42,468 nucleotides of DNA from Rhodospirillales bacterium (GTDB taxonomy: Bacteria > Pseudomonadota > Alphaproteobacteria > CACIAM-22H2): assembly GCA_947445225.1 (NCBI GenBank), contig CANFCX010000009.1, positions 1 through 42,468 on the forward strand, written 5' to 3'. Shown piece after piece: positions 414-42,192 of the stretch. Position numbers and translations under genes: made by a program. The notes under the pieces were generated by a model. The model made no database searches, was not told the origin of the DNA, and saw nothing but the letters and a program-made list of their open reading frames with translations. Position 1 is the first letter of the stretch. Each line of letters begins with the position of its first letter.

Positions 414-485
414 TAGATGGTACGCGCAAGACGCCAATCAGAATAGAAACGCCCCAAATTGGGGTTGAAAACGGGAGCGCCATCG

Positions 486-1220
486 ATGCTGAATTTCTCG
501 CGCCGCCTCGGCGGCACCTTGGTTTTGGCTCTGGCGGGCCTGCTGGCCGCCGAAGCCTATGCGCAACAAGCCAGACCAATCACCTACAACGCGCCGATCC
601 AGCTGCAATCGGCCCGCTTCAACGGAAATGTCTGGTCGAACGCCCAAAGCCGGCACCGCCGAGATGCGGCGGAGGTCCTGGTATCGGACAACGCGCAGCG
701 CGATAAGGGCGGCGCCGCGATTTACGTACTCCGCAAGGTCGGAGATATCGACGACAAGGGTGAGGTCAAGTTCGGCGACAAGTTCGAAATCTGGTCCTTC
801 TTCACCGCCCCCGGCCGCCCAGACAACGCCGGGGTCTTCGAAGACGGCCGCATTCTTTCGGTTGTCGATGACAAACATCCCCAATTCGGCGTCGGGTTCA
901 ACGAGTTGGTCCTTTACAATTCAATGGCCGGTGACGGCCCGATCAGCACGTCCTTCCGCCTCGCACCGGTGGAAAGCGGCAAGACGGGGACCGTGCGCGC
1001 CGGCGACAAATTCAATCTCATCGCCAGCGTCTTGGGCAAGGAAGCCCCGCTGCGCGTGGTCAAAGGCTCGCGCTACCCCACCGGCGAGTGGAATTCGGTG
1101 ATCGTCGGCGGCAAACCGCCGCAAGACGCCGACGACCCCAACGCCGCGGTCTTTACGCTCCAGGTCGCGGAGCGCAACCCGCAGAACGACAAGGGTTTCG
1201 ACGCCTCCAAGAAGAACTAG
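486..1220 (+). CDS. Exported protein of unknown function
   Basis: This encodes 244 aa. The ATG at 486 was chosen because it begins a clear Sec signal peptide (MLNFSRRLGG, then a hydrophobic core, then AEAYAQ before QARP); a TTG 27 bases earlier would put extra residues in front of the signal. The mature protein is hydrophilic, with many Asp, Lys and Gly residues and no membrane segment. I recognise no catalytic motif. The composition (repeated DDK/GDK loops and predicted beta-rich stretches) fits a periplasmic or secreted beta-sandwich, which is only an inference. It is monocistronic: it has its own likely promoter upstream and a strong terminator 27 bases after the stop. No neighbour suggests a pathway. 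Confidence 0.75.
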   Translation: MLNFSRRLGGTLVLALAGLLAAEAYAQQARPITYNAPIQLQSARFNGNVWSNAQSRHRRDAAEVLVSDNAQRDKGGAAIYVLRKVGDIDDKGEVKFGDKFEIWSFFTAPGRPDNAGVFEDGRILSVVDDKHPQFGVGFNELVLYNSMAGDGPISTSFRLAPVESGKTGTVRAGDKFNLIASVLGKEAPLRVVKGSRYPTGEWNSVIVGGKPPQDADDPNAAVFTLQVAERNPQNDKGFDASKKN

Positions 1221-1246
1221 CTAATACCCGGCGCACGACGCCAGCC

Positions 1247-1281
1247 AAAAGGCCCTCTCGAGTGGAGAGGGCCTTTTTTTT
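1247..1281 (+). terminator. Rho-independent terminator
   Basis: A 13-bp stem (AAAAGGCCCTCTC at 1247-1259 with its complement at 1265-1277) and a 5-base loop run into an uninterrupted T tract. It ends the 486-1220 gene. The A-rich 5' arm also makes it plausible as a bidirectional terminator for the cyclase gene arriving from the other side. Confidence 0.9.
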
Positions 1282-1287
1282 CTTCGT

Positions 1288-2646
1288 TCAAGTGACCGCC
1301 GGCTGAGCTGCTTGCCTCGGCGTGGCACCGATCGTTGTCGGTGCTGGCGGCCATTTCAGTCGGAATAGCCGGACCGGCCGTGTGCGTCCCCGCATGACCT
1401 GTTGCGGAACCTCGTCCCAGCGGCCGTCGTCTTCGGCCACCCCCGCGGCCGAGAGCAGCTCGGCCGAGACAAGGAGCGGGGCGCCAACATCGCGCGTCAG
1501 GTGTTCGATTCGCTGCGCTGTGTTCACGGTATCGCCGACGACGGTGTATTCCAGCCGGTTTTCGTCACCCAGCGTACCCGCGATCACCGGTCCGTAATGA
1601 ACACCGACGCCGATTGAAACCGGAGCCATCCCCCGCCCTTGTCGATCCTCGCTCCAGGCAACCGTCTCCTTGAGAAGGTCGGAGGCGCAAGCCAGCGCCG
1701 AAGCCGCGGCGTTCGGCCCCGGCATGGGCGCGCCGAACACCGCCATCACCGCGTCGCCGATGAACTTGTCGAGCGTGCCGCCATGCGCAAAGATCGGCCG
1801 CGATGTGCGGCGGCGAAATTCGTTGAGGAATTCGGCGACCTCGTGGGGGTCCATATTTTCCGCCAGCGCGGTGAAGCCGTGGACATCGGCGAATAGGACC
1901 GCCACATCGATGCGGCGGCCGGCACCCTCTCCCGGCCCCTCCCTCGCCAACTCGGCCGCGAGATTGGGCGGCAGGTAGCGCGACAGATTGGCCGCGCGAC
2001 GGGCATCGACGGTGGCCAACAGCAGAAGCCGCCGCGCGCGCGCCACGGCGACTGCCAGGATGGCCGCGGTGACGACGGCGATGAGCAGACGCACGACCTC
2101 GCCGTCTACCGCGTGGATTTGCCGCATCATGACTTCCATGCTCGGCTCGGGCTGGTTGCCGAGGGCGGAATAGAGCGCGACCCAGGCCGCGGCGAACAAG
2201 AATGCGGCGTAAGCAGCCAGCATGGGGCGGAGGCGCAACGCGGCATGGGCGATGATGAGGAAAATCAGAGCGCCCGCGGGCATCGACAACGCCCAAGTAA
2301 AGGGCATGCCTCCGCCAAAGGTCAGCAGCGCGATGATGGTGACAAGGAAGGCCACGTCGGCGGTCGTGAATGCCCAGGGCAACCAGGGCCGGAAAAATCC
2401 ACGATGCGCCAGCCACAAGCCGATCGCGGTGCTCAATCCATAGGCTGGCAGCATCCCGGCGATCATGGAGACCGCGGCCGGCGCCATGACGTTCCCCAGG
2501 TCGCCCAGCATGAGGCTCATGACGACACCGAACAACACCAGGAAGGAGAGCAGCCGGAGATAAGCCGATAGCCGCTCGCTATTCGCTTCTGCCTCAAGAA
2601 CGACGCGGTCTATGTGGCTCTTCACGGCTTCGCCGTCATGTTCCAT
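1288..2646 (-). CDS. Membrane class III adenylate/guanylate cyclase
   Basis: This 452-aa protein probably makes cyclic AMP at the inner membrane. After a short charged N-terminus there are about six hydrophobic segments (roughly residues 25-215), then a cytosolic catalytic domain (about 245-430). Key motifs are VLFADVHGFTALAE (first metal Asp), GGTLDKFIGDAVMAVFG (substrate Lys and second metal Asp) and RLEYTVVGDTVNTAQRIE (transition-state Asn and Arg). The second substrate-specificity position is Thr rather than Asp, which is common in bacterial cyclases of this type, so ATP is the likely but not certain substrate. The six-segment anchor plus catalytic domain resembles membrane-sensor cyclases. 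It lies 46 bases downstream of the ferric-reductase-like gene on the same strand. Its 5' end has a decayed duplicate at 3406-3509. Confidence 0.88.
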   Translation of the reverse strand: MEHDGEAVKSHIDRVVLEAEANSERLSAYLRLLSFLVLFGVVMSLMLGDLGNVMAPAAVSMIAGMLPAYGLSTAIGLWLAHRGFFRPWLPWAFTTADVAFLVTIIALLTFGGGMPFTWALSMPAGALIFLIIAHAALRLRPMLAAYAAFLFAAAWVALYSALGNQPEPSMEVMMRQIHAVDGEVVRLLIAVVTAAILAVAVARARRLLLLATVDARRAANLSRYLPPNLAAELAREGPGEGAGRRIDVAVLFADVHGFTALAENMDPHEVAEFLNEFRRRTSRPIFAHGGTLDKFIGDAVMAVFGAPMPGPNAAASALACASDLLKETVAWSEDRQGRGMAPVSIGVGVHYGPVIAGTLGDENRLEYTVVGDTVNTAQRIEHLTRDVGAPLLVSAELLSAAGVAEDDGRWDEVPQQVMRGRTRPVRLFRLKWPPAPTTIGATPRQAAQPAVT

Positions 2647-2692
2647 TGCTCGGGCGCGGCGCCCTTCCGCGCGGCCGATCGAGACATCGAGA

Positions 2693-3379
2693 CTATGGCT
2701 TCTTAGGCAACACCATCACAACCATGCGGAAGACCAGGACGAAGAGGACAAAACTCGCGGAGATAAGGCTGATCGAAGCCAACCCGTACTGCCAACTCTC
2801 CGGCAGCCACCATCCGCGCCATCCAATGATCGCTACATGAATAAGTACCATCGCATAGGCGAAATATCCGAGCCTTTGGATGAATCTCCATTGCTGCGGG
2901 TTCATGTCCTTTTCCACCGACTTTAGCGAAGTAATGGAAATCGCGGAAAAAAGGAGCAATGAGATAATCCCGAACAACATGGCTGATTCGCCAGCAAGAT
3001 TAAGCCTGCCATTGGACGAAAAAAGGCCGGGGTAGTAGGCGGGCGAAAAAATGACCAAAGACATGAGCGAGTGTAAAGCCGCAATAAAAAATCCGGCTAC
3101 TCCCGTGAATTTTAACATTCGCTTATCATAAGAAAATAATTTCGGAAAAAAGCGGGCGAAGTGGCCAAGCAAGAACGACATGCCGATGAGAATGACGGCC
3201 GTCATGGAAATCGATTTATTCGCGACAAAAAGCGGAATGTTTTCGTAAGGAACGTTGCGAACAACATTGTACCGAACAAACGCGTACACGAGCGCCAGGG
3301 CAAAAACCGAGAAGCAAACAAGAGCGGCGCGCCCAAATACCGAATCCGTTGGCTCTTTCATGCCGCTGTCATCCGTCAT
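2693..3379 (-). CDS. Ferric-reductase-like / MsrQ-like transmembrane protein
   Basis: This encodes 228 aa with about six membrane helices (near residues 16-36, 56-75, 93-112, 132-152, 168-188 and 200-224). His73, His103 and His181 lie in or at helices, and a W-R-F-I-Q-R-L-G-Y stretch precedes the helix with His181. That layout matches the heme-binding ferric reductase-like transmembrane domain (PF01794) found in MsrQ and NADPH-oxidase relatives. No flavin domain follows, so it would rely on a partner for electrons; no msrP-like gene is visible here. The DNA, especially about 2930-3370, is clearly richer in A+T than everything around it, which suggests recent acquisition. It is bracketed by the cyclase 5' end and a remnant of the same sequence. 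The exact family within this superfamily is uncertain. Confidence 0.75.
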   Translation of the reverse strand: MTDDSGMKEPTDSVFGRAALVCFSVFALALVYAFVRYNVVRNVPYENIPLFVANKSISMTAVILIGMSFLLGHFARFFPKLFSYDKRMLKFTGVAGFFIAALHSLMSLVIFSPAYYPGLFSSNGRLNLAGESAMLFGIISLLLFSAISITSLKSVEKDMNPQQWRFIQRLGYFAYAMVLIHVAIIGWRGWWLPESWQYGLASISLISASFVLFVLVFRMVVMVLPKKP

Positions 3380-3405
3380 CTTACTTTACCGCCATGACGA
3401 TCCTG

Positions 3406-3509
3406 GGTTGCCCGTCATGAGGCTGATGACGACACAGCATCGAGGATGAGGCGGCCCATGCGGCTCTGCACGAATGCGCCGCCACGTCCCGTTGCTCGGG
3501 CGCAACGCA
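3406..3509 (-). pseudogene. Decayed duplicate of the cyclase gene 5' end
   Basis: This stretch aligns with the start of the intact cyclase in two collinear blocks. Positions 3437-3509 match about 2591-2663, with 23 of 30 bases equal in the first 30 and the 12-mer TTGCTCGGGCGC conserved just outside the start codon. Positions 3406-3435 match 2499-2528 with four differences. About 61 bases present in the intact gene are missing between the blocks, which breaks the frame. The start codon has become ACG (3490-3492). Translated, the blocks give GAFVQSRMGRLILDA against GEAVKSHIDRVVLEA, and VVISLMTGN against VVMSLMLGD. It is therefore a non-functional remnant of a cyclase N-terminus, lying directly 5' of the AT-rich ferric-reductase-like gene. 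Confidence 0.75.
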
Positions 3510-3545
3510 ATCGGCCATCGGAACGGCCAGGATCAATAATCCATG

Positions 3546-3971
3546 TCAGTGGATCATGTAGGACACGGTCACCGTGCTCCAACCCTCGACCTTCGCGCCC
3601 TTCGCATCGCCGCGTTTTTGATCCCCGACATACCGATAGAGCGGCTTGTCGGAATAGGTCCATTGCCGCTTGCCGTCCTCACGCCTCATGAAATCGAGTT
3701 TGCCGTAACCCGCGGTCGCCTTTTCGTCGGCGAGAAATGGCTGCCAGGTCTGGGCACAAGCCCCGGCGCAGGTAGCCTTGTTCGGCGGATCGCGGTCGAA
3801 CGTATAGACCGTCATGCCGGAATCGTCGGCCAGGATGATCCCAGCCTCGGTTTCTTGGATGCTCAGCGGGCCAATGTCTTCATCGACCATGATCTCGGCG
3901 CGGAGGCCGGACGCGGACGCCACGACCAACACCACCGCCAAGGTTACCCAACGCCATGCTGCGATGCCCAT
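3546..3971 (-). CDS. Exported COG4315-family protein (Yx(F/W/Y)xxD motif), copy A
   Basis: This 141-aa protein starts with a signal peptide (hydrophobic residues about 8-22, cleavage likely after LRA). It carries the COG4315 hallmarks: YTFDRD at 56-61, a Cys pair (Cys68, Cys72) in the ATCAGACAQTWQP region, and a second repeat ending in KPLYRYVGDQKRGD. The family is described as predicted lipoproteins of unknown function, but here there is no lipobox, so the protein is probably periplasmic. It lies at the downstream end of a copper-handling gene set and a second member lies at the upstream end (8181-8609), so a role in copper or redox stress is a reasonable inference. The conserved Cys, Tyr and Asp residues could bind metal. 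Confidence 0.85.
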   Translation of the reverse strand: MGIAAWRWVTLAVVLVVASASGLRAEIMVDEDIGPLSIQETEAGIILADDSGMTVYTFDRDPPNKATCAGACAQTWQPFLADEKATAGYGKLDFMRREDGKRQWTYSDKPLYRYVGDQKRGDAKGAKVEGWSTVTVSYMIH

Positions 3972-4066
3972 CTTCGGCTCCTCCCCTCACAAGTCGCCTT
4001 TTCCTATCCACGTCCGAAGCCTTCCGGCGCACAACCGCCGGAAGGTCCCGGAATTCACGAGATAAC

Positions 4067-4444
4067 TTAGTGTTTGTGGCCGTCCATCATCATGGGCATG
4101 GACTTGCCCGCATCGGTGGCGCCCGCAGCGGCGGCGGCCCGCTTCTCGAAGCTAATGACGGTAAAGGCGCCGTTCACGCGGTCGGGCACGAAGTGGATCA
4201 CATCGCCGGCCTTGAGCTGATTGAGCATGGCGGGATCGGCGACCTGGAAAATCATGGTCATGCCGGGCATCTTGAGGCTCTCGATCGGCCCATGTTTGAT
4301 CGTGACCTTCTTGGCGTCCATGTCGACCTTCATGACCTCTCCATCGACATGCGGGCCGGCGGCCAGCGCCACATTCGGGGTTCCAAAGACCAGGCCGAGG
4401 GCAAGAATGGGCCCAAGGGCGAGCATTGAGATGAATTTCGTCAT
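4067..4444 (-). CDS. CusF-like periplasmic copper-binding protein
   Basis: This encodes 125 aa. ATG 4444 is preferred because GGAGGA lies seven bases upstream; a longer reading from 4501 would place the signal peptide internally. A signal peptide (to about ALAA) is followed by a small beta-barrel with His51, Met59, Met62 and Met64. This spacing equals the H36-W44-M47-M49 metal site of E. coli CusF, except that the Trp is replaced by Met. CusF chaperones Cu(I)/Ag(I) in the periplasm to a CusCBA pump. The C-terminus adds a Met/His-rich tail (MPMMMDGHKH) that could hold more copper. It lies between the cupredoxin and the COG4315 genes on the same strand. No CusA or CusB homologue is seen. Confidence 0.88.
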   Translation of the reverse strand: MTKFISMLALGPILALGLVFGTPNVALAAGPHVDGEVMKVDMDAKKVTIKHGPIESLKMPGMTMIFQVADPAMLNQLKAGDVIHFVPDRVNGAFTVISFEKRAAAAAGATDAGKSMPMMMDGHKH

Positions 4445-4520
4445 TGCGATTCCTCCAGTTTGAAGACGCGGTGATTTCAAGACATCGGCAGGCGTGTGCA
4501 ACTTCTCCGAATCAGGTCGG

Positions 4521-5021
4521 TCATTTGTTAACGACGATGGTGCCCTTCATGCCGGCTTCGAAATGGCCGGGCTTGAGGCAGCCATAGGCGAACTGGCCGA
4601 CCTTGGTGAACTTCCAAAGAATCACGCCGTTTTTCCCCGGTGGAAGCGAAACCGCGAAGGGCTCCGCATGCTCCATTTCCGGGAATTGTTGCATCAGTTT
4701 GGCGTGCTCCTCAAGGTCCGCAACCGTCCCCAGCATCAATTCATGGTCGGCGACGCCGCGGTTTCTCACATTGAACCGAATGGTTTCGCCCAGTTTGATC
4801 GTCAATTTCGCCGGGCTGAAGCGCATGGTTCCGTTGTCGAGCATGTCGACCTGGACGATCCGTGCCTTGGCCTTTGGGTTGCCGGGCTCGCCGAAGGTCG
4901 CGGTGTGACCCAAGGCGCCGTCATGCGGGTGATCGTCGTGTGAATGCCCAGTTCCCGCCGCGAAGGCGCCGGTCGAAAGCGCCGCCATCAAAGCCGCCTG
5001 AACCAACATGCGGACGCGCAT
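4521..5021 (-). CDS. Periplasmic cupredoxin (type 1 copper protein)
   Basis: This 166-aa protein has a signal peptide (about 1-21), then a His/Asp-rich segment (HSHDDHPHD) that could bind metal, then a cupredoxin domain from about 52 to 165. The type 1 copper ligands are visible: His93 in VADHEL, then Cys148, His153 and Met158 in YGCLKPGHFEAGM. Such proteins carry single electrons or bind copper in the periplasm; this His-rich form is often found beside copper oxidases. An AGGGAG ribosome site supports ATG 5021; a second ATG four codons later is the alternative. It lies 45 bases downstream of the multicopper oxidase gene, which suggests co-transcription and possible electron exchange with that enzyme (inference). 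Confidence 0.9.
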   Translation of the reverse strand: MRVRMLVQAALMAALSTGAFAAGTGHSHDDHPHDGALGHTATFGEPGNPKAKARIVQVDMLDNGTMRFSPAKLTIKLGETIRFNVRNRGVADHELMLGTVADLEEHAKLMQQFPEMEHAEPFAVSLPPGKNGVILWKFTKVGQFAYGCLKPGHFEAGMKGTIVVNK

Positions 5022-5066
5022 TGTCTTGCTCCCTCTATTCGGTGCGTTGGACCAATATCTAAGAAC

Positions 5067-6353
5067 TCAAATGTCGCCTTTCCACTCATAGGCCAGGGTG
5101 CCCGGCGGGTGCCGGTACCAGCCGGGATCGCGATAGTCGTTGCGGGCCAGCCCTTCCCTCACCTTCACAACCGTGAACATGCCGCCCATCTCCAACGGAC
5201 CGAACGGCCCCGAACCGGTCATCATCGGCAGCGTGTTGTCGGGCAGCGGCATTTCCATTTCGCCCATGTCGGCCATGCCGCGCTCGCCCATCACCATGTA
5301 GTCGGGGACAAGCGAGATAATACGTTTGGCGACACCGCGATGATCGACGCCGATCATCGTTGGAACGTCGTGGCCCATTGCATTCATGACGTGATGGGAT
5401 TTGTGACAGTGGAAGGCCCAATCGCCCGGCGCGTCGGCGTCGAATTCGAGGGCGCGCAGCGAACCGATCGGCATGTCCACCGTCGTCTCCGGCCATTGCG
5501 CGGCGGGCGGTACCCAGCCGCCATCGGTGCCGGTGATCTTGAAATTGAAGCCGTGAAGATGAATGGGGTGGTTGGTCATCGTTAGATTGCCGATGCGGAT
5601 ACGCACGCGGTCGCCAAGCCGCACCGGAATCGAATCGATGCCGGGGAACACACGGCTGTTCCAGGACCAAAGGTTGAAATCCAGCATCGTATTGACGCGT
5701 GGCGTGTAGCTGCCCGGCGTTATGTCGTAAGCGTTGGTCAGGAAGACGAAATCGCGATCGACGCGATGCTGATTGGGATCACGCGGATGCACAACGATGA
5801 ACCCCATCATCCCCATCGCCATCTGCACCATTTCGTCGGCATGCGGGTGGTACATGAACGTACCGCTATGTTTCATCTCGAATTCGTAAACATAGGTCTT
5901 GCCGGCCGGGATTTGCGGCTGGGTCAGACCGCCCACGCCATCCATGCCGTTGGGCAACAAGATCCCATGCCAATGGATCGTTGTGTGCTCCGGCAGCCTA
6001 TTGGTGACAAAAATGCGAAGCCTGTCGCCCTCGACGCATTCGAGGGTCGGGCCGGGGCTTTGGCCGTTATACCCCCAGAGATTGGCCTTCATCCCCGGCG
6101 CCAGTTCACGCACCACCGGCTCGGCGATCAGGTGGAACTCCTTCCAGCCATTGTTCATGCGCCAGGGCAGCGACCAACCGTTAAGCGTGACCACGGGGTT
6201 GTAGGGGCGTCCGTCCCGCGGCACCAACGGCGGCTGGGTCTTTGGCGAGTCCTGCATCGGCGCTTCGGGCAACGCCGCGATCGCCGAGCGGGTGACGGCA
6301 CCGGCCGTAAGCAAGGCCGCGCCAGCCTGAATGAAGTCCCGTCTGCTCACCAT
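5067..6353 (-). CDS. Tat-exported multicopper oxidase (copper oxidase, CopA/CotA-like)
   Basis: This encodes 428 aa. ATG 6353 is chosen because AAGGAG stands eight bases upstream; the in-frame GTG at 6386 would overlap the preceding tolC-like stop. SRRDFIQAGAAL at the N-terminus is a twin-arginine signal. All four copper motifs are present: HWHG (127-130), HPHAD (169-173), HPIHLHG (262-268) and HCHKSHHVMNAM (315-326), with the type 1 Cys316, His321 and axial Met326. The C-terminal part is Met-rich (MVMGERGMADMGEMEM, then PMM and EMGGM), as in cuprous oxidases that detoxify Cu(I) using oxygen. It lies just downstream of the TolC-like gene and upstream of the cupredoxin gene. Oxidase activity on Cu(I) is inferred from family and context. 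Confidence 0.93.
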   Translation of the reverse strand: MVSRRDFIQAGAALLTAGAVTRSAIAALPEAPMQDSPKTQPPLVPRDGRPYNPVVTLNGWSLPWRMNNGWKEFHLIAEPVVRELAPGMKANLWGYNGQSPGPTLECVEGDRLRIFVTNRLPEHTTIHWHGILLPNGMDGVGGLTQPQIPAGKTYVYEFEMKHSGTFMYHPHADEMVQMAMGMMGFIVVHPRDPNQHRVDRDFVFLTNAYDITPGSYTPRVNTMLDFNLWSWNSRVFPGIDSIPVRLGDRVRIRIGNLTMTNHPIHLHGFNFKITGTDGGWVPPAAQWPETTVDMPIGSLRALEFDADAPGDWAFHCHKSHHVMNAMGHDVPTMIGVDHRGVAKRIISLVPDYMVMGERGMADMGEMEMPLPDNTLPMMTGSGPFGPLEMGGMFTVVKVREGLARNDYRDPGWYRHPPGTLAYEWKGDI

Positions 6354-6375
6354 GTCCGAAGGCTCCTTGTCCCGG

Positions 6376-7812
6376 TCAATGCCCACCGCCCGCCGACCCG
6401 CCGGGCAGGGTCGCCGTCGTCATGCCGCCGGCGGCCGACCCCGGAGAACCGGCGGTCAGGGCCGTGTCGAGGTCGGCATCGGCGAGCCAGAAATCGCGCA
6501 GCGCCTCGATCGCTCCGGTGACACTGGCGATTTGATCGCGGGCATCGGCCAGCAACTCGAAAACGCCGATCAACATGCCGTTGTATTCCAGGAGTTGTTG
6601 CTCGGAGATGGCCTTGCGCAGGGGCACGATTTCTTCGCGGTAGTGCTTGGCGATCTCGTGCGCCGCGCGATAGCCGCCATAGGCCTCGCGGATTTCCGAC
6701 CGCGCATTGATGGCAATGTCCGAGACACGATTGACCGCCTGCATATAGAGGGCCTCGGCCTTGGCCGTCCGCGCGCCGCCCCAATCGAAGATGGGCAATG
6801 CGATTTCGATTTCGAAGCCTGTTTGCTGCGGCTCCGCCCCGGGCTCGTCGGAAGCCTCGGAGACGCGATTCCACAAATAGCCCGCATGGAGCACATTAAC
6901 AAAACGTGTCACGCGGGTGAGGCCGAGCGCCGCCGCCACCGCCTCGGCATCCTTGCGCGCGGCCAGGATGTCCAGCCGCTGGTTCAACGCGGTCGCCTCG
7001 ATATTCTGCAATTCCCTGGGCTGCGTCGGCGGGTCCGGCAGCCGGTCGGGCACGGTGAATTGCAGTTCCTCACCCCACAACCCCATGAGCCGGATGAGTT
7101 TTTCGCGCGCGACCATCGTGGCGGTCCGCGCCCGCGCCAGTTGCGTGGCCACCTGGGCGTAAAACACACGCTCGCGCGCTTCCGTCAGCCGGTTGAAATT
7201 GCCGGCGCGGCGCATCCGCTCCGCCAGATCGGCGCTGGCATCGGCCGCCATCTTCGCTTGCTCGGTGTATCGCAATATCTCCTGCGCGGCGACCGCGTTG
7301 TAATAGGCCCGGCGCGTATCGGCGGCGAGACCGAGCACTTCGCCGGCAACCGAATATTGGGCGCGCTTGAAACGCTCGGCCTCGATCCGCATATCGAACG
7401 GCATCGTTAAAACACCGAGAACGTCGATCGCGATGCTGCGCTCGATTTCGGTCAACGCCCCGGTTCGCATCAAGCGCGCGAACGAAAACGTCGGGTTCGG
7501 AAGCCTCCCCGCCTGGACGTAATCGGCCTCGGCGATGAGCAATTCGGCAAAGCTCGCCTGGAGGCCGCGATTGTTCAAAAGTGCGATCTGCACCGCGGCA
7601 TCGGCGGTAAGGGGCGCGGCCCTCAGTGTGGCGACCCGCGAGCGCACGAATTCGGCGTCCTCTTCGGTCTTGATCCACCTGACTTCCTTGCCGATCTTCT
7701 CGCCGGCAACCTGCCGGGCGACGCCCAACCCGCCATCGTCCGAGAATGTTGCGCAGCCGCCCAAAATCCAAGCCGCCGCCGCGATCGTCCACCTGCCGCT
7801 CAACTTGGTCAT
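6376..7812 (-). CDS. TolC-family outer-membrane efflux lipoprotein
   Basis: This encodes 478 aa. The start at ATG 7812 gives a clean lipoprotein signal (MTKLSGRWTI, hydrophobic run, LGGC with Cys20); the longer reading from 8040 runs back through the upstream lipoprotein gene. Two outer-membrane-efflux repeats with long helical stretches follow (about 95-280 and 290-450), and the C-terminus is Gly/Ala-rich. TolC-like proteins form the outer-membrane exit duct of tripartite pumps. The ATGA overlap with the small lipoprotein gene points to translational coupling, and the oxidase gene starts 22 bases after its stop. No inner-membrane pump or membrane-fusion protein is visible here, so either it borrows a partner encoded elsewhere or this lineage uses TolC differently in copper defence. 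Confidence 0.9.
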   Translation of the reverse strand: MTKLSGRWTIAAAAWILGGCATFSDDGGLGVARQVAGEKIGKEVRWIKTEEDAEFVRSRVATLRAAPLTADAAVQIALLNNRGLQASFAELLIAEADYVQAGRLPNPTFSFARLMRTGALTEIERSIAIDVLGVLTMPFDMRIEAERFKRAQYSVAGEVLGLAADTRRAYYNAVAAQEILRYTEQAKMAADASADLAERMRRAGNFNRLTEARERVFYAQVATQLARARTATMVAREKLIRLMGLWGEELQFTVPDRLPDPPTQPRELQNIEATALNQRLDILAARKDAEAVAAALGLTRVTRFVNVLHAGYLWNRVSEASDEPGAEPQQTGFEIEIALPIFDWGGARTAKAEALYMQAVNRVSDIAINARSEIREAYGGYRAAHEIAKHYREEIVPLRKAISEQQLLEYNGMLIGVFELLADARDQIASVTGAIEALRDFWLADADLDTALTAGSPGSAAGGMTTATLPGGSAGGGH

Positions 7813-8072
7813 GGCCTTCTTTCGACCGGGACGGAGGGCGCGGCAGCGCCTTCGATATGGCCCATATGGCCGCCAAGACGCCACATCTCGTCGTTCGCCG
7901 CACGCCACGATCCCAATCCCTGGTCGGGAGCGGGGCGGTAGGTTGAAAACACCGATTCGTACCGAAAGGCCGGTATCGTCGCCTGGGGCGTCAGCGGATC
8001 GCGCAGATGCGCGGGCTGGGGCGAAGCGCACGCGGCACACGCGACCGCCGCCAGGGGTGCCCAGAAACGCAT
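7809..8072 (-). CDS. Small lipoprotein of the copper cassette
   Basis: This encodes 87 aa from ATG 8072; a TTG 96 bases further upstream is less likely. MRFWAPLAAVACAACASP looks like a lipoprotein signal, with Cys12 or Cys15 as the lipidated residue, though neither fits the consensus lipobox exactly. The rest is short, with Trp, Met, His and Arg (RLGGHMGHIEG near the end) and no known domain. Its stop overlaps the TolC-like start by the four bases ATGA. I do not recognise the family beyond its position; small lipoproteins before tolC genes occur in other copper clusters. A helper role in assembly or metal binding at the outer membrane would be a guess. Confidence 0.65.
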   Translation of the reverse strand: MRFWAPLAAVACAACASPQPAHLRDPLTPQATIPAFRYESVFSTYRPAPDQGLGSWRAANDEMWRLGGHMGHIEGAAAPSVPVERRP

Positions 8073-8180
8073 CAACCGACGGCCGTAGATCGCCCCGATA
8101 GGTCCGCTCAAGCCCAATGTCTCGGTACTACGGCGACGCAGTGGAGCCGCTACCACCTGTTTCCTCAACGCCTTATGCGT

Positions 8181-8609
8181 TCACATGTCATGTCCCGAAA
8201 TCGGAACGACATGCCAGGTCTTGTTACCCTGATTGTGTCCCAAGATATCTCCAGGCTTGGCATCCTTCGAGTACCGATAGAGCGGCTTCTCCTCCCAGGC
8301 CCATTGTTTGGTTCCATCGTCGCGCGTGATGACCGACAGCTTGAAACCCTTTGCCCCGCCGTTGTAATCGGCCGCCGAAACCGGCGGCCAAGCCTCGGCG
8401 CAAGCACCGGTGCAGGTCGATTTGCCGGGTGTGTCGCGGTCGAACGTATAGAGTACGAAGCCCTTCCTATCGGTAAGGACCGGGCCCTCCGTGGTGTAGC
8501 CGTCGACCTCAAACGGCGTAATATCGTCGTCGGCCATGAACGCCGCGTTCAGCGCAAACGGCGCGAGGACAACACAGGCTGCCAGCGCAGCGGACTTCAA
8601 CATCGACAT
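8181..8609 (-). CDS. Exported COG4315-family protein, copy B
   Basis: This encodes 142 aa. ATG 8609 is supported by GGAGGAG nine bases upstream; a longer reading to 8681 lacks such a site. A signal peptide (about 1-23) is followed by the COG4315 pattern: YTFDRD at 54-59, Cys66 and Cys70 in STCTGACAEAWPP, and a second repeat with KPLYRYSKDAKPGD. It is clearly related to copy A (3546-3971) across both repeats but well diverged, so this is an old paralogy or two separate acquisitions, not a fresh duplication. It is the first gene of the copper cassette, 125 bases after the sensor kinase stop. Biochemical function is unknown; metal or redox stress is suggested by context. Confidence 0.85.
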   Translation of the reverse strand: MSMLKSAALAACVVLAPFALNAAFMADDDITPFEVDGYTTEGPVLTDRKGFVLYTFDRDTPGKSTCTGACAEAWPPVSAADYNGGAKGFKLSVITRDDGTKQWAWEEKPLYRYSKDAKPGDILGHNQGNKTWHVVPISGHDM

Positions 8610-8734
8610 GGCGATCGGCTCCTCCTCAGAGACTAGTTCATTTGCCCGCCGGGGCTCCGCCATTGGCAGGCGCGGTGGCATTAAAGACGCCTTGTGTATC
8701 TGGATTATTTCGCCGGCGGATCGGGCGCTTAAGA

Positions 8735-12053: not shown

Positions 12054-14258
12054 CTAGCTCCAGCTCAGGTCGTGATTGCGGAACGGCAGCGCGCGGATGC
12101 GTTTGCCGGTCGCGCGGAAGACCGCATTGGCGATGGCTGGCGCGGGTGGAGCGATGGGCGGCTCGCCCGCCTCCGTCAGCTTGGCACCGCCGGTCAGCCC
12201 GCCGAAATGAACCTTGATCGTCGGAGTATCGGCGATGCGAACCATGGGGTAGTCGTCGAAATTGCCTTGGACGACCCGACCGTTGCGAACGGTCAGCTCC
12301 TCGTTGAGGGTCTTGTTGATGCCCATGATGGTGCCGCCCTCGAACTGGGCGGTGATACCGTCGGGATGCAGCACCTTGCCGGTGTCGAAGGCGATGTCGA
12401 CAGTATCCACCTTCACGCTGCCATCGGTACTGACCGTTACTTGAACCAGATTGGCGATGATCGAGGCGTCGTTGGGTTTGCTGTTCGGCCAAGCCCCGAT
12501 GGCGAAACCCTGGGCTGTGCCCTTGGGCAGGTTCTTTTTACCCCATTCACCCTTGGCGGCCGCTTCGTTGAGAACCTTGAGCCAGGCCGGATCGCTCCAT
12601 TTGGCGAACAAGCTGCGGCGATAGTCCATCGGGTCCTTGCCGGCCGCGTGCGCCAATTCGTCGACGAAGGACTCCAGGAAGAACACGTTGGTGTTGTAGC
12701 CCGGACCGCGCCACGGCCCGGTCAGCAGGTGTGTGTTGGTCGGGATCGATTCGACCATGAAGTTGGGGATCGCCGAGGCATAGGGAGTGTCGATCAGCAC
12801 GCCAGTCGAAGGGGTGTGCCCCGCGATGCGGATGACCATGGCCTCGGGGAGACCGTCGGCGCCGAGGACCGCTTGCAGCTTGGCCACCGAAAACGGATTG
12901 AACCGGCCCTGGCGCGTGGTTTCTTCGCGCGACCAGATGACCTTGACCGGACGTCCCGGCACCTTCTTGGCGACCGCGACGACCATGCGGGCATCGTCGC
13001 CGAAGATGCGGCGGCCGAAGGCGCCGCCGGCATTGGCGGCATGGACCACGACATTGTTGAGCGGCACGCCGGTTTCGATGGCGGCGAGGAGCATGACGTT
13101 CTGGCTCGCCTGGGTCGAAATCCACATTTCAACATTGTTGGCCGTGACGAGTGCAGTGCCGTTCAACGGTTCCATTAACGCATGTTCGAGGAACGGTGCC
13201 TGATAGGTGGCCTCCACCAGCTTGCCGCCCTTGGCGATCACGGCGAGCGGATCGCCTTCCTTGCGGTTGACGGTGCCGCCGCCCCGATTGACCGCGGCGA
13301 TCGCCGTCTTGAAGAAGTCCTCGCTGTTGGTGTTGGCACCCGGACCGTCATCCCATTGAACGGGCAACACATCGAGGGCGCTCTTGGCGTGCCAAAAGCT
13401 GTCGGCGATGACCGCGACCGCGCTTTGCGGCGCCGGCTCGGCATAAAGCGTCTTGAGATCGGTCTTCGGCCGGGCTTCGCTCGGATCGACGACGACGACG
13501 CTATGGACCCCTGGGCGGTCCTTGATCGCATTGAAGTCGAAGCTCCGCAGCTTGCCGCCCATCACCGGTGATTGGCGGAGCGCGGCGTAGAGCATGTTCG
13601 GCGCCTTCACGTCCAGGCCGAACACCGCCGAGCCGTCGACCTTGCCCTTGACGTCGGTGCGCGGGGCCCGCGCCTTGCCGAGGAATGTCCATTGGTCCGG
13701 AGCCTTGACCGCGGGTTCCTTGTCGAGCTTGATCTGAGCGGCTTGCGCGGCGAGTTGGCCGAAAGCGGCCTTGCGCCCGGACGCCACGTGAATCACCTCG
13801 CCGTTGTTGACCGTGAGGTCGGCGACGCCGACGTTCCAGTTCCTCGCGGCCGCGGCCTTCAGGCGTTCGCGAACGCTGGCGCCGGCCTGCTGAAACTGCT
13901 CGAGGCTCTGGTACGAACGGTTGGAATTGAAGTTGCGCGCGCCGATCTTGCCGGCAAAGACGTTGTTGTTCTTCATATCCCAATTCGGCTCGGCCGCCAG
14001 CACCTTGATCTTGTTCCAATCGCAGCCGAGTTCCTCGCACACCATCATCGGCAAGGTCGAAACCGCGCCATTGCCGATCTCGGTCTTGCCGACACGGACG
14101 CTCACGGTGCCGTCCGCGGCGATCAGAACCCAGGGGTTGATCTCGATGTCCGCGGCGGTCTGCGCGCCGGCCGGGCGCACGCCGAGAGCCATGCCACCAC
14201 CGACGGCGGCGGTCGTGACGACGAACTGCCGGCGGTTCATTTCCAATCGATTGGTCAT
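12054..14258 (-). CDS. Mo-hydroxylase large subunit, xanthine-dehydrogenase family (isoquinoline 1-oxidoreductase beta-like), copy 1
   Basis: This encodes 734 aa with a twin-arginine signal (MNRRQFVVTTAAVGGGMALG). Members bind molybdopterin cytosine dinucleotide and hydroxylate N-heterocycles or oxidise aldehydes; electrons pass to the 2Fe-2S small subunit encoded just upstream. Visible features include the cofactor loop AGGAFGRR, the WSREETTRQGRF stretch common to this branch, and the C-terminal active-site region EAGEPPIAPPAPAIANA with the likely catalytic Glu. It ends in the family tail NHDLSWS. The usual WGGIGE around the catalytic Glu is replaced here by KLTEAGE, unlike the two copies at the right end. 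The gap to the small-subunit gene is 14 bases, so they form one operon. Substrate cannot be told from sequence. Confidence 0.9.
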   Translation of the reverse strand: MTNRLEMNRRQFVVTTAAVGGGMALGVRPAGAQTAADIEINPWVLIAADGTVSVRVGKTEIGNGAVSTLPMMVCEELGCDWNKIKVLAAEPNWDMKNNNVFAGKIGARNFNSNRSYQSLEQFQQAGASVRERLKAAAARNWNVGVADLTVNNGEVIHVASGRKAAFGQLAAQAAQIKLDKEPAVKAPDQWTFLGKARAPRTDVKGKVDGSAVFGLDVKAPNMLYAALRQSPVMGGKLRSFDFNAIKDRPGVHSVVVVDPSEARPKTDLKTLYAEPAPQSAVAVIADSFWHAKSALDVLPVQWDDGPGANTNSEDFFKTAIAAVNRGGGTVNRKEGDPLAVIAKGGKLVEATYQAPFLEHALMEPLNGTALVTANNVEMWISTQASQNVMLLAAIETGVPLNNVVVHAANAGGAFGRRIFGDDARMVVAVAKKVPGRPVKVIWSREETTRQGRFNPFSVAKLQAVLGADGLPEAMVIRIAGHTPSTGVLIDTPYASAIPNFMVESIPTNTHLLTGPWRGPGYNTNVFFLESFVDELAHAAGKDPMDYRRSLFAKWSDPAWLKVLNEAAAKGEWGKKNLPKGTAQGFAIGAWPNSKPNDASIIANLVQVTVSTDGSVKVDTVDIAFDTGKVLHPDGITAQFEGGTIMGINKTLNEELTVRNGRVVQGNFDDYPMVRIADTPTIKVHFGGLTGGAKLTEAGEPPIAPPAPAIANAVFRATGKRIRALPFRNHDLSWS

Positions 14259-37644: not shown

Positions 37645-39826
37645 TCAAATCGGCCGCTTCGAGATATCGTGGTTCTTCAGCGGCAACGACCGTATGCGCG
37701 GCCCGCCGGCATCGAAAATCGCGTTCACCGTGGCCGTCTGCACCGAGGCGGTGGCGCCCTCGCCGATGCCGCCCCAGACCTTGCCACTCGGCACCAAATG
37801 CACATCCACCTTTGGCATCTCGCCGATCCGCATCATCTGGTAGTCGTCGAAATTGCCCTGAACCGCACGGCCATTGGATATCGAGATTTCGCCATAAAGC
37901 GCCGCGGTCAGGCCATAGGCGACGGAGCCTTCGACTTGATAGATGGCGTTGTCGGGATTGACCACCCAACCCGTATCGGCGGCGCAGACCACGCGATCCA
38001 CCTTGAACCAGCCATCGCTGTCGAGCGTGACCTCGACGACCGTGGCCATGGCGGTATTGGCGTTGACCTTATAGTCGAGCGCGATGCCGCGACCGCGGTT
38101 CGGCCCGAGCGGCTTTCCCCAATCGGCTTTCTGCGCCGCGGCATCGAAAACCGCGGCCATCTGCCGGCCCCTATCGTTGTCCATCATCAAGGCGCGTTGA
38201 AAGGAATAGGCGTCCTTCCCCGCCGCGTGCGCGAGTTCGTGGAAGAAGCTCTGATGGAAGAAGCAGGTATGGCCGTTGCCGACGCTGCGGAAATTCCCCA
38301 GGGGGACGGGACTGGGCCGCAGCGCGGAATCGACCAGGATATTGGGGATCGTGTACCACTCCAGCTCCGATCCCGTGGTCAGGAAATTCGGCGCGCTGCC
38401 GACGATGCGCTGCGACCAGGCGATCGTCTTGCCCGACGCGTCGAGTCCGCCCTGAACCTTCGACAGGCTCGCCTGCCGATAGAAGCCGTGGCGCGTGGTT
38501 TCTTCGCGCGTCGAGATCATCTTGATCGGCGTACCCTTCATCACCTTGGCGATCTGGACGGTCTGGCTGGTGTAATCCTGTAGGCTGCGCCGGCCGAAAC
38601 CGCCGCCCAGCAGCACGATGTTGATCCGCCCCTTTTCGATGGGAAAACCGGCCATGCGCGCGGCCACATTGACGGTCTGTTCCGGCCCTTGCGTGGGCGC
38701 CCAGACCTCGAACCCGTCATCGGTGACAATGGCCGCGCAGGTCATCGGCTCCATCGTCGCGTGATCGAGGAAAGGCACGCTGTATTCGGCCGTCAACACC
38801 TTCGCGGCCGATTTCATTGCCGCTTCGGCGTCGCCTTCCTTGCGGATGGGCTTTTCGACGACATCGGCCATCGCCGCGCGCATGTCGTTGAGATAATCGG
38901 CGCTGCCTTTCTTCGCGTTGTCGCCGCCATCCCATTCCTTCGGCATGGCGTCGAGCGCGGTCTTGGCCTGCCACCAATGATCGGCGACAACGGCGATGCC
39001 GTCGTCCATGCCGTTGACGCCGCCGGCCTGGCCGCCCTTGATCTCGACGACCTTGACCACGCCCGGCCGGCTTAAGGCGGCGCTGGCGTCATAGGATTTG
39101 AGTTTCCCGCCGAAAACCGGGCTCGACATGATGGCGGCGTGTTTCATCCCGGGCAGCTTGATGTCGATGCCGAAGATGGCGGTGCCATTGACCTTGGCCG
39201 GCACCTCGAACCGCTTCATCGATTTGCCGACGATTTTCCATTCGGCCGGCGTCTTGAGCTTCAGCGTCTTCGGATCCGGCGGCGTCAGCGTCGCCGCCGT
39301 GGCGGCCAGCTCCCCATAGGTGAGTTTGCGGCCGGAAGCCCCGTGGATGACGGCGCTGTTCTCGGCGACAAGCTCGGCTTCCGGGACATTGAGCCGCTGC
39401 GCCGCGGCTTTCACCATCAGGGTCCTGATCGTGGCGCCGGCCTGAAACAGAACCTGCTCTGACTGTTTGATGCCGGAACTGGCGTTGGTCGCGATCCGCG
39501 AGCCATAGACGCGGTTTTGCGCGAGGTGCCGGACGATGTCGAAGAACTCATAGCGGATCGTGGACCAATCGAATTCGGCTTCTTCGGCGATGAGCTGCGA
39601 CAGCGACGTCGTTGTGCCCTGGCCCATCTCCTGCTGTGCGATGCGGATGGTCACGGTGTTATCGGGCGCGATCACGACCCAAGGCGTGATTTCGATCGAT
39701 CGGGCCTGGGCGTGGGCCTGACGGAGGCCAGGCGCCGGCCATCTCAGGCCCACGGCCAATCCGCCGCCAAGGGCTGCGGTCGTGAAGACAGAACTGACGG
39801 CGGTCCAATGCGAACAGCTTTGTCAT
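37645..39826 (-). CDS. Mo-hydroxylase large subunit, copy 3, frameshifted in its Tat signal
   Basis: The body (about 704 codons from 39759) is intact: LLGGGFGRR cofactor loop, STREETTRHGFY, and WGGIGEGAT with the likely catalytic Glu, ending NHDISKRPI. The expected start is ATG 39826, giving MTKLFALDRRQF, a twin-arginine motif. One extra base near 39790 then shifts the frame; removing it restores a continuous VFTTAALGGGLAVGL hydrophobic core into the body. As written, only a version without the RR motif could be made, from TTG 39759 or another weak start. Either a sequencing error or a real loss of export. The C-terminal tail differs from the NHDLSWS of the sisters. It lies downstream of copy 2 on the same strand, beyond a terminator. 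Confidence 0.85.
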
Positions 39827-39954: not shown

Positions 39955-42192
39955 TTAAGACCAGCTCAGATCGTGGTTCTTAAGCGGCAACGTGCGGATG
40001 CGTTTTCCGGTCGCCCGCGCCACCGCATTGGTGACCGCCGGCGGGATCATCGGGATCGACGCCTCGCCGATGCCGCCCCACTTGCTGCCACCGGTCAACG
40101 CGCCGAAAGAGATCGCCGTGTCCGGCATCTCGTCGATGCGCATCATCTGGTAATCGTCGAAATTGCCTTCGACGATACGGCCCCGGCGGACATTGAGTTC
40201 GCCGTACATCGTGGCGGTGTAGCCCATGACCACCTGGCCCTGGACCTGCGCCTCGATATCCGCGCGGTTGATGATGTTACCGCTGTCGAAAGCGGTGTCG
40301 ACCTTCAGCAATTTCACCGAGCCGTCTTGCGCCACGCTCAAGGTGACCACATTGGCGCAGATCGTGCCCGCCGCCTCGCCGATGGCGAAGCCTTGAGCCG
40401 TGCCCTTGGGATAGGTCTTCGTGCCCCAGCCCGACATCTTAACAACCTCGTCCAGGCACTTCAGGTAGCCGGGATCGCGGTTGCCGACCAGCAATTCGCG
40501 GCGATAGGCCACGGGATCCTTACCCGCGGCCTCGGCGACTTCGTCCATGAAACCTTCAAGGACTTGGACGCTCCAGCCCGACGGTGCCCGCCAGTGACCG
40601 AGATGGAGGTTGCTGGGCGTGTAGGTGTAGTCGGCGAGGACCGTCGGCACGGCGTAAGGCGGCGTGCTGAGGTTGCCGGGATAGTCGATGCCGGTCTGTT
40701 GGAACGCCACCGGATTGGCACGGGCGTTGAGGGCGTCGGAAGCAACCCGAGCCATCCACGCGACCGGCTTGCCATCGGCGCCCAGGCCGACTTCGAATTT
40801 GGCCGCGTGCATCGGCCGGTAGATGCCTTGGCGTGTGGTTTCTTCACGCGTCCATTGCAAGTGCACGGGCCGATCGAGCTTCGCCAGCCGCGCGATGGCC
40901 ACGGCCTGACGCACCTCGTCGCCGATGCTGCGCCGGCCGAAACCGCCGCCGAGGAAGGTTTCATGGAAGTAGACCTTCGCCGGCGCGATCGCGAGTTCTT
41001 CCGCGGCGACACGCAGAGCGTTTTCAGCATCCTGGCTTCCCGCCCACACATCCACACGATCCTGTTGCAGGTGCACGGTGGCCGCCAGCGGCTCCATCGT
41101 TGCGTGGTCGAGATAGGGCACCAGATACTTAGCCGAGACGGTCTTGGCCGCGGTCCGCATCGCGGCCGCCGCGTCGCCGACTTTCCGCACTTCCTTGACG
41201 CCGGGCTTGTCCAGCGCGTCGAGCGCGGTCTTGTAGATCGATTCGGTGTCGAACTTGGCGACTTCGCTGTCGTCCCACTCCACCGGCATGATGTCGAGCG
41301 CGGTCTTCGCATTCCACCAGGTGTCGGCGACCACGGCCACCGCTTCGCGGAGACGGCTGCGGTCCTCAGGCCGTTTGGCGCGATCGTCCTTGCCGAGCGC
41401 GACGACGGCGATGATGCCGGGACGGTCCTTCAGCGCGTTGGCGTCGAAGCTCTTCAGCTTGCCGCGATGCGCGGGCGAGGCCTTGACCGCGGCATAGACC
41501 ATGCCGGGGATGCGGATGTCGGCCGCGAAGACGGCGCTGCCATTGACCTTGAGCGGCGTGTCGAAGCGCTTAACCGTGCCCTTGCCGATCAGGTTGAACT
41601 GGTCCGGGGTCTTGATCGCCGGCTCTTTGTCCAGCTTGACCAAGGCCGCCTTGGAGGCGATCTGGCCGAAGGTCATGGTTCTGTTGGAGGCGGCGTGACG
41701 CAGCATGCTGTTCTTCGCCTCGACTTCGGTGACCGGCACCTTCCACTCGGTGGCCGCCGCCTGCTTAAGGCGTTCACGAGCCTCCGCGCCGGCCTTCTGC
41801 AACGGCTCGCGCTGGGTCCGGATGCCTTGGCTGCCGACCGAGCGCATTTCGCCGTAGATTCTGTTCTGCGTGACGTTGCGATGGGCTTCGGCGAATTCGA
41901 CCTTCACCTTCGACCAGTCGCATTCCAATTCCTCGCACAGGATCAGCGGCATGCTGGTGACCGCGCCTTGACCCATCTCAGCGCGATGGAAGCGGAAGAC
42001 GACGGTGTTGTCGGGCTGGATCATCACCCAGGCGTTGACTTCGGAGGCGTCCAGGGTCAGCGCGGTCAGCCACGGCTTGGGGCTGAGTTCATCCGCCGCG
42101 ATCGCCGACCGGACGCTAATGGCCATACCGCCGCCGAGAACGGCGACTGTGGTCACGAAGCTCCGGCGGTTCATTGCCAATCTATTGGTCAT
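39955..42192 (-). CDS. Mo-hydroxylase large subunit, xanthine-dehydrogenase family (isoquinoline 1-oxidoreductase beta-like), copy 2
   Basis: This encodes 745 aa with a twin-arginine signal (MNRRSFVTTVAVLGGGMA) and a strong GGGAGGGG ribosome site before ATG 42192. The cofactor loop is FLGGGFGRRSIGDE, followed by WTREETTRQGIYRP. The catalytic region is KWGGIGEASIPMIPP, with the Glu in place, and the tail is GKRIRTLPLKNHDLSWS. It binds the molybdenum cofactor and would oxidise a heterocycle or aldehyde in the periplasm or at the membrane. The small subunit lies 15 bases upstream. It differs enough from copies 1 and 3 across the middle that the three probably have different substrates. Confidence 0.9.
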   Translation of the reverse strand: MTNRLAMNRRSFVTTVAVLGGGMAISVRSAIAADELSPKPWLTALTLDASEVNAWVMIQPDNTVVFRFHRAEMGQGAVTSMPLILCEELECDWSKVKVEFAEAHRNVTQNRIYGEMRSVGSQGIRTQREPLQKAGAEARERLKQAAATEWKVPVTEVEAKNSMLRHAASNRTMTFGQIASKAALVKLDKEPAIKTPDQFNLIGKGTVKRFDTPLKVNGSAVFAADIRIPGMVYAAVKASPAHRGKLKSFDANALKDRPGIIAVVALGKDDRAKRPEDRSRLREAVAVVADTWWNAKTALDIMPVEWDDSEVAKFDTESIYKTALDALDKPGVKEVRKVGDAAAAMRTAAKTVSAKYLVPYLDHATMEPLAATVHLQQDRVDVWAGSQDAENALRVAAEELAIAPAKVYFHETFLGGGFGRRSIGDEVRQAVAIARLAKLDRPVHLQWTREETTRQGIYRPMHAAKFEVGLGADGKPVAWMARVASDALNARANPVAFQQTGIDYPGNLSTPPYAVPTVLADYTYTPSNLHLGHWRAPSGWSVQVLEGFMDEVAEAAGKDPVAYRRELLVGNRDPGYLKCLDEVVKMSGWGTKTYPKGTAQGFAIGEAAGTICANVVTLSVAQDGSVKLLKVDTAFDSGNIINRADIEAQVQGQVVMGYTATMYGELNVRRGRIVEGNFDDYQMMRIDEMPDTAISFGALTGGSKWGGIGEASIPMIPPAVTNAVARATGKRIRTLPLKNHDLSWS

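Follow-up and report, generated by a model that had tools for sequence, protein, structure and literature searches.

We found that a Rhodospirillales bacterium carries, in a copper-handling gene cluster, a single gene that we judge to be foreign; it is flanked by two copies of the start of an adenylate/guanylate cyclase gene, one intact and the other decayed (Table 1). Positions refer to the window, the whole 42,468-nucleotide stretch that we analyzed. The enclosed gene is predicted to encode a STEAP-like membrane reductase and is a candidate trace of a cross-phylum transfer, fairly old, with its nearest known relatives in the ultra-small bacteria of the CPR/Patescibacteria. We favor a reading in which a foreign gene was inserted at the front of a resident cyclase with duplication of the cyclase 5′ end, and the remaining copy decayed. 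We give this reading a probability of about 0.5.

A repeat of the cyclase 5′ end on both sides of one gene

An earlier note on this DNA had claimed that the start of the cyclase (2499-2663) is repeated at 3406-3509. We found that the repeat is real and slightly wider than described. The best local alignment pairs 2482-2658 with 3390-3504, with 92 of 114 aligned bases identical and 22 mismatches. When we ran the comparison with shuffled sequence that the note had proposed, the repeat scored 82, while 2,000 dinucleotide shuffles gave a mean of 17.1 (SD, 2.5) and a maximum of 30.8. The maximum among 2,952 random pairs from the window was 33.2. A second, independent repeat search recovered the same blocks, and both copies are oriented like the cyclase.

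Two details of the repeat had to be amended. It had been described as two blocks separated by a 61-base deletion; 61 bases are indeed missing from the 3390-3504 copy, but the gap is split in two around a 4-base island, and there is an additional single-base gap. The start codon had been called lost. The ATG at 2646 of the intact copy is ACG in the decayed copy, but the congener cyclase starts at the equivalent of window codon 8, a GTG at 2625, and because this GTG is retained in the decayed copy, loss of the start is uncertain. In the 64-base block, the substitutions at codon positions 1, 2, and 3 number 4, 8, and 3, and this spread suggests that the decayed copy is without coding constraint. 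In one block, 8 of 15 changes are from A, a possible sign of a diversity-generating retroelement; we dropped this reading because the other block, by eye, has no A bias. The repeat search found no transposon-like inverted repeats at the ends of the insert.

As had been claimed, exactly one gene lies between the repeats, and its DNA is richer in A+T than either side (G+C of 45 to 53% across the open reading frame versus ~58 to 70% on the flanks). The insert is ~0.73 kb and nearly all gene, with 10 bases upstream and 34 downstream. The gene has a G+C content of 49% and a GC3 of 61%; in this comparison of codon composition, which was made within the window, the other predicted genes at 459-8681 have GC3 values of 72 to 80%. 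A simple consensus scan of 1200-5100 found no promoter-like site on the strand of the foreign gene, the sole match being on the plus strand. Since its flanks are minimal and it runs in the same direction as the copper genes, the foreign gene is probably transcribed together with them.

Table 1. Features of the cyclase locus and blocks of the repeat (window positions)
Feature	Position	Strand	Remarks
Class III adenylate/guanylate cyclase, intact, 452 aa	1288..2646	-	PF00211, 1.6e-21; probable real start GTG at 2625
Cyclase ORF 3′ tail, also retained in congener G002 beside scar	1288..1361	-	1227-1361 versus G002, 116/131
Intact copy of cyclase 5′ end	2482..2658	-	~first 55 codons plus 12 bases upstream
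Spacer, intact cyclase 5′ copy to foreign-gene stop	2659..2692		34 bases
STEAP/ferric-reductase-like membrane protein, judged foreign	2693..3379	-	228 aa; His103 and His181 putative haem ligands
Leader of foreign gene	3380..3389	-	10 bases; too short to hold its own promoter
Decayed copy of cyclase 5′ end	3390..3504	-	61 bases deleted; apparently without coding constraint; probably the original 5′ end
Flank common to G002, not in G001	3483..3544		48/53 over 3483-3537
Lipoprotein_15 protein	3546..3971	-	Orthologues in G001 and G002 anchor synteny
Copper genes	4067..6356	-	CusF-like, 4067-4447; CopI/plastocyanin-like cupredoxin, 4521-5021; multicopper oxidase, 5067-6356
Repeat block 1	2482-2493/3390-3401		11/12 match
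Repeat block 2	2495-2528/3402-3435		28/34 match
Repeat block 3	2549-2552/3436-3439		4/4 match
Repeat block 4	2594-2657/3440-3503		49/64 match

Cyclases also adjoin copper genes elsewhere, which favors a cyclase that is old at this locus. On a plasmid of Sinorhizobium meliloti HM006, the order is TolC, oxidase, cupredoxin, CusF, and cyclase, and a Microvirga plasmid likewise has a cyclase next to copper genes. The S. meliloti neighbor and the window cyclase share only 33% identity. We also observed that two Lipoprotein_15 genes (3546-3971 and 8181-8681) flank the copper gene cluster.

Relatives and predicted function of the foreign gene

We found no homologue of the foreign gene in the two congeners or in other family members. 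Of 61 genomes sampled from its genus, family, and class, only the window's own has it, and one class member has a 27% match. A five-sequence profile run against 385 class genomes returned weak matches only, and in 398 genomes of the phylum the other matches to the protein were 22 to 36% identical. Phyla beyond the window's own and CPR were sampled by a single exact-peptide scan, which covered 84,980 species genomes and returned one relative, a protein of Ca. Daviesbacteria (MFDM01000026.1) with 55% identity over residues 7 to 227. Its contig bears ordinary sugar-metabolism genes. When we searched 138 genomes around the Daviesbacteria one, it and three relatives carried proteins of 51 to 57% identity, and others carried proteins of 23 to 32%. 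A phylum-wide CPR sample added a protein of 41% identity (G1148). In trees, the window protein falls in a clade with the Daviesbacteria-type and G1148 proteins, with support of 100/99; sister and nested placements are not separated.

Judged by its absence from relatives and its affinity with CPR proteins, the gene at 2693-3379 is foreign. The earlier note had proposed, as one of two readings, a foreign gene whose arrival was tied to duplication at the front of the cyclase, and these results support that reading: a close homologue is missing from the congener, family, class, and phylum samples, and the protein groups with CPR proteins. Next to the gene, three of the four close CPR genomes have one for a WrbA-type NAD(P)H:quinone oxidoreductase that scores above the curated cut-off, and the fourth has a partial WrbA-type gene. 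No WrbA-type gene is adjacent to the foreign gene in the window. Because plasmid records, phage records, and viral contigs held no detected relative, we identified no transfer vehicle. The Daviesbacteria-type genes have GC3 values of 0.24 to 0.32, the G1148 gene has 0.67, and the window gene has 0.61. Judging by the G1148 value, that phylum does include donors with a moderate G+C content, and the GC3 of the window gene suggests either such a donor or long residence.

The gene had been labeled ferric-reductase-like, and the label was right. The family profile matches STEAP metalloreductases (STEAP2, 3.9e-17), and 25 of 30 family members match PF01794; on its own, the window protein matches no Pfam model significantly. 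An AF2 model built from 30 sequences reached a pLDDT of 89.8 (a first model from 5 sequences was poor, with a pLDDT of 60, and was left out). The model matches STEAP1 (Z, 23.2; 206 residues; 2.5 Å) and, over nearly the whole length, also STEAP2 and STEAP4 (Z, 21 to 23 across STEAP1/2/4), and Foldseek matched it to STEAP2 at 4.6e-7. His103 and His181 are kept in >90% of the alignment rows and align to H316 and H409 of STEAP2, which we take to be the haem ligands of that protein.

The window protein thus resembles the STEAP metalloreductase transmembrane domain (STEAP1/2/4; ferric reductase superfamily, PF01794) in having the six-helix fold over its whole length, both haem histidines, and a length near that of the STEAP1 core. 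In contrast to STEAP, it is bacterial, its identity to STEAP is ~20%, and its reductase activity is only putative. STEAP2 to STEAP4 carry a fused N-terminal NADPH/flavin domain, whereas the window protein is a membrane domain only; STEAP1 is likewise without a working NADPH/flavin domain. MsrQ (YedZ), the haem subunit of the MsrPQ methionine sulfoxide reductase, is also a short haem membrane protein and gave a weak NCBIfam match (0.0023). We rejected membership in that family (17.4 versus a cut-off of 130 bits), and no MsrP was found among the neighbors scanned. By analogy with STEAP, the protein probably moves electrons through the inner membrane by way of a single haem b, either to reduce Fe(III) or Cu(II) or to supply an acceptor in the periplasm. 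In such a putative copper or iron redox function, the electron donor would be a separate flavoprotein.

The locus in congeners and the age of the duplication

Synteny is kept in both congeners, with the Lipoprotein_15 gene on the right and the gene at 459-1220 on the left. The earlier note had proposed a comparison with genomes lacking the enclosed gene. Such genomes exist, but the cyclase is missing from them too, and we rejected a clean empty site because both congeners look like deletion scars. Both lack the cyclase-metalloreductase block (2.1 to 2.2 kb), and the endpoints differ: alignment to the window breaks off at 1361 and resumes at 3483 in G002, versus 1300 and 3545 in G001. The G002 site keeps the cyclase tail (1288-1361) and the start region (19 of 22 bases), and the middle is gone. 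This similarity has a probability of ~1e-8 per placement under a simple binomial, although it is only 22 bases long. The scar of cyclase start plus tail suggests that the cyclase is probably an old resident and that the decayed copy is its original 5′ end. The G002 arrangement reads best as a deletion from an ancestor that had the cyclase here.

A second cyclase (G001:C15; L067 6154-7482), with 62% amino acid identity to that of the window, lies at another locus and only in G001. At that locus (L094 and L093), G000 and G002 are without the cyclase and have different scars, that of G000 across a 9-base direct repeat. Since the scars differ, loss would be the usual process here. Cyclase genes were apparently lost repeatedly in the genus, with reciprocal loss of paralogues. 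At both loci, cyclase homology stops near the presence/absence boundary (window 1354 and L067 6211), and the last 15 to 22 cyclase codons lie in DNA retained by genomes without the cyclase gene. In G002, the start of the Lipoprotein_15 gene carries a short tandem repeat (L052, ~1905-2035), with several copies of a unit of ~18 bases.

At fourfold sites, the window genome differs from either congener at ~20%, which corresponds to a corrected distance of 0.24 in total and ~0.12 per lineage. The Jukes-Cantor (JC) distance between the two 5′ copies is 0.223 (114 sites, with a wide error). If one copy is neutral and the other constrained, the duplication probably dates from around the congener split or earlier. 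In a rough amelioration model, a GC3 that starts at 0.28 reaches 0.43 after 0.12 substitutions per site and 0.53 after 0.24. At that pace, a GC3 of 0.61 requires a much older arrival or a donor with a GC3 near 0.5 to 0.55. Because 0.61 is far from 0.24 to 0.32, a direct donor of the Daviesbacteria type would need ~3 times the congener divergence under this rough model.

Order of events and possible donor

According to our preferred model, the cyclase would have long resided where the copper-handling cluster ends. A piece of DNA with one CPR-type gene for a STEAP-like single-haem membrane reductase would have become fixed at the cyclase front, accompanied by direct duplication of the cyclase 5′ end over ~177 bases. 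The copy that stayed behind (3390-3504), severed from the cyclase body, would have decayed, and the copy joined to the body (2482-2658) would have preserved a whole cyclase. Independent deletions of the entire block would later have occurred in the two congeners. SXT/R391 elements in prfC are likewise flanked by a duplicated gene 5′ end. There, as in the window, the front of the host gene is duplicated and the host gene stays whole; unlike those elements, the window insert is short and has no integrase or mobility gene.

The donor is putative, as are the joining mechanism and the order of events, for which insertion with 5′ duplication, replacement, and decay of a tandem copy are all candidates. 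In a xenologous replacement, a related species with both the cyclase and the foreign gene would have donated the segment, leaving 3390-3504 as a remnant of the replaced native cyclase. The 5′ copies are 19% different, above the expectation for a young duplication, and the decayed copy with its flank is a closer fit to G002 (48/53) than is the intact 5′ end. However, up to 1361 the cyclase tail looks native (1227-1361 versus G002, 116/131), which would place the left crossover inside the cyclase gene, and our congener, family, class, and phylum samples contained no relative with a cyclase beside such a gene. We consider replacement unlikely. Somewhat less likely again are two full tandem cyclases, of which the upstream one would have had its body replaced by the foreign gene and its 5′ end left to decay. 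We found no trace of the upstream copy's body or 3′ end at 3379-3390 or 2659-2692, although this history yields the same final order and the second cyclase of G001, at another locus, indicates that cyclase paralogues occur in the genus.

A lower chance still goes to the insertion of 1362-3482 (cyclase, foreign gene, and 5′ copy) as a unit into a G002-like empty site. Collinearity with G002 holds to the left and to the right of exactly this block, and homology between the two genus cyclases begins at 1354, next to the G002 boundary at 1361, which is also expected from a single insertion of the whole 2.1-kb block. But the G002 site holds the cyclase start region, the endpoints in G001 and G002 differ, and the differing scars of G000 and G002 at the second cyclase locus point to loss. 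Finally, the source is a draft genome of 157 contigs, in which assembly or binning could have joined CPR DNA to the contig. We regard such an artefact as very improbable: a gene with a GC3 of 0.61 and 55% identity to CPR proteins is unlike the CPR composition of 0.24 to 0.32, and native DNA lies on both sides inside one 42-kb contig.

With regard to the donor, it is possible, though doubtful, that a CPR bacterium or a close unsampled lineage donated a metalloreductase to a larger bacterium, and that the gene settled in a copper operon beside the cyclase and works with the copper genes. The available parts of one report (PMC12455944) describe gene exchange in both directions between Patescibacteria and other groundwater bacteria, with 29 transfers predicted from Patescibacteria to other groundwater microorganisms; this kind of event is therefore already known. 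Those transfers concern aquifer genomes and other functions, and the window gene is absent from those parts of the report. The transfer instance described here appears new, as far as our searches show. To our knowledge, transfers out of CPR seem less documented than transfers among CPR.

Transfers out of CPR hint at which cells CPR bacteria touch. If true, donation by CPR would mean that a functional gene has passed out of a putative episymbiont lineage into a cell of a possible host type. The junctions, a datable duplication, and two scarred congeners make the order of events testable. In addition, the presence of a STEAP-like reductase beside genes for a multicopper oxidase, CusF, and a cyclase suggests that metal redox is linked to copper handling, which can be tested.

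As a separate observation, three large molybdopterin-binding (xanthine dehydrogenase-like) subunits are encoded on one contig, at 12054-14258, 37645-39759, and 39955-42192.
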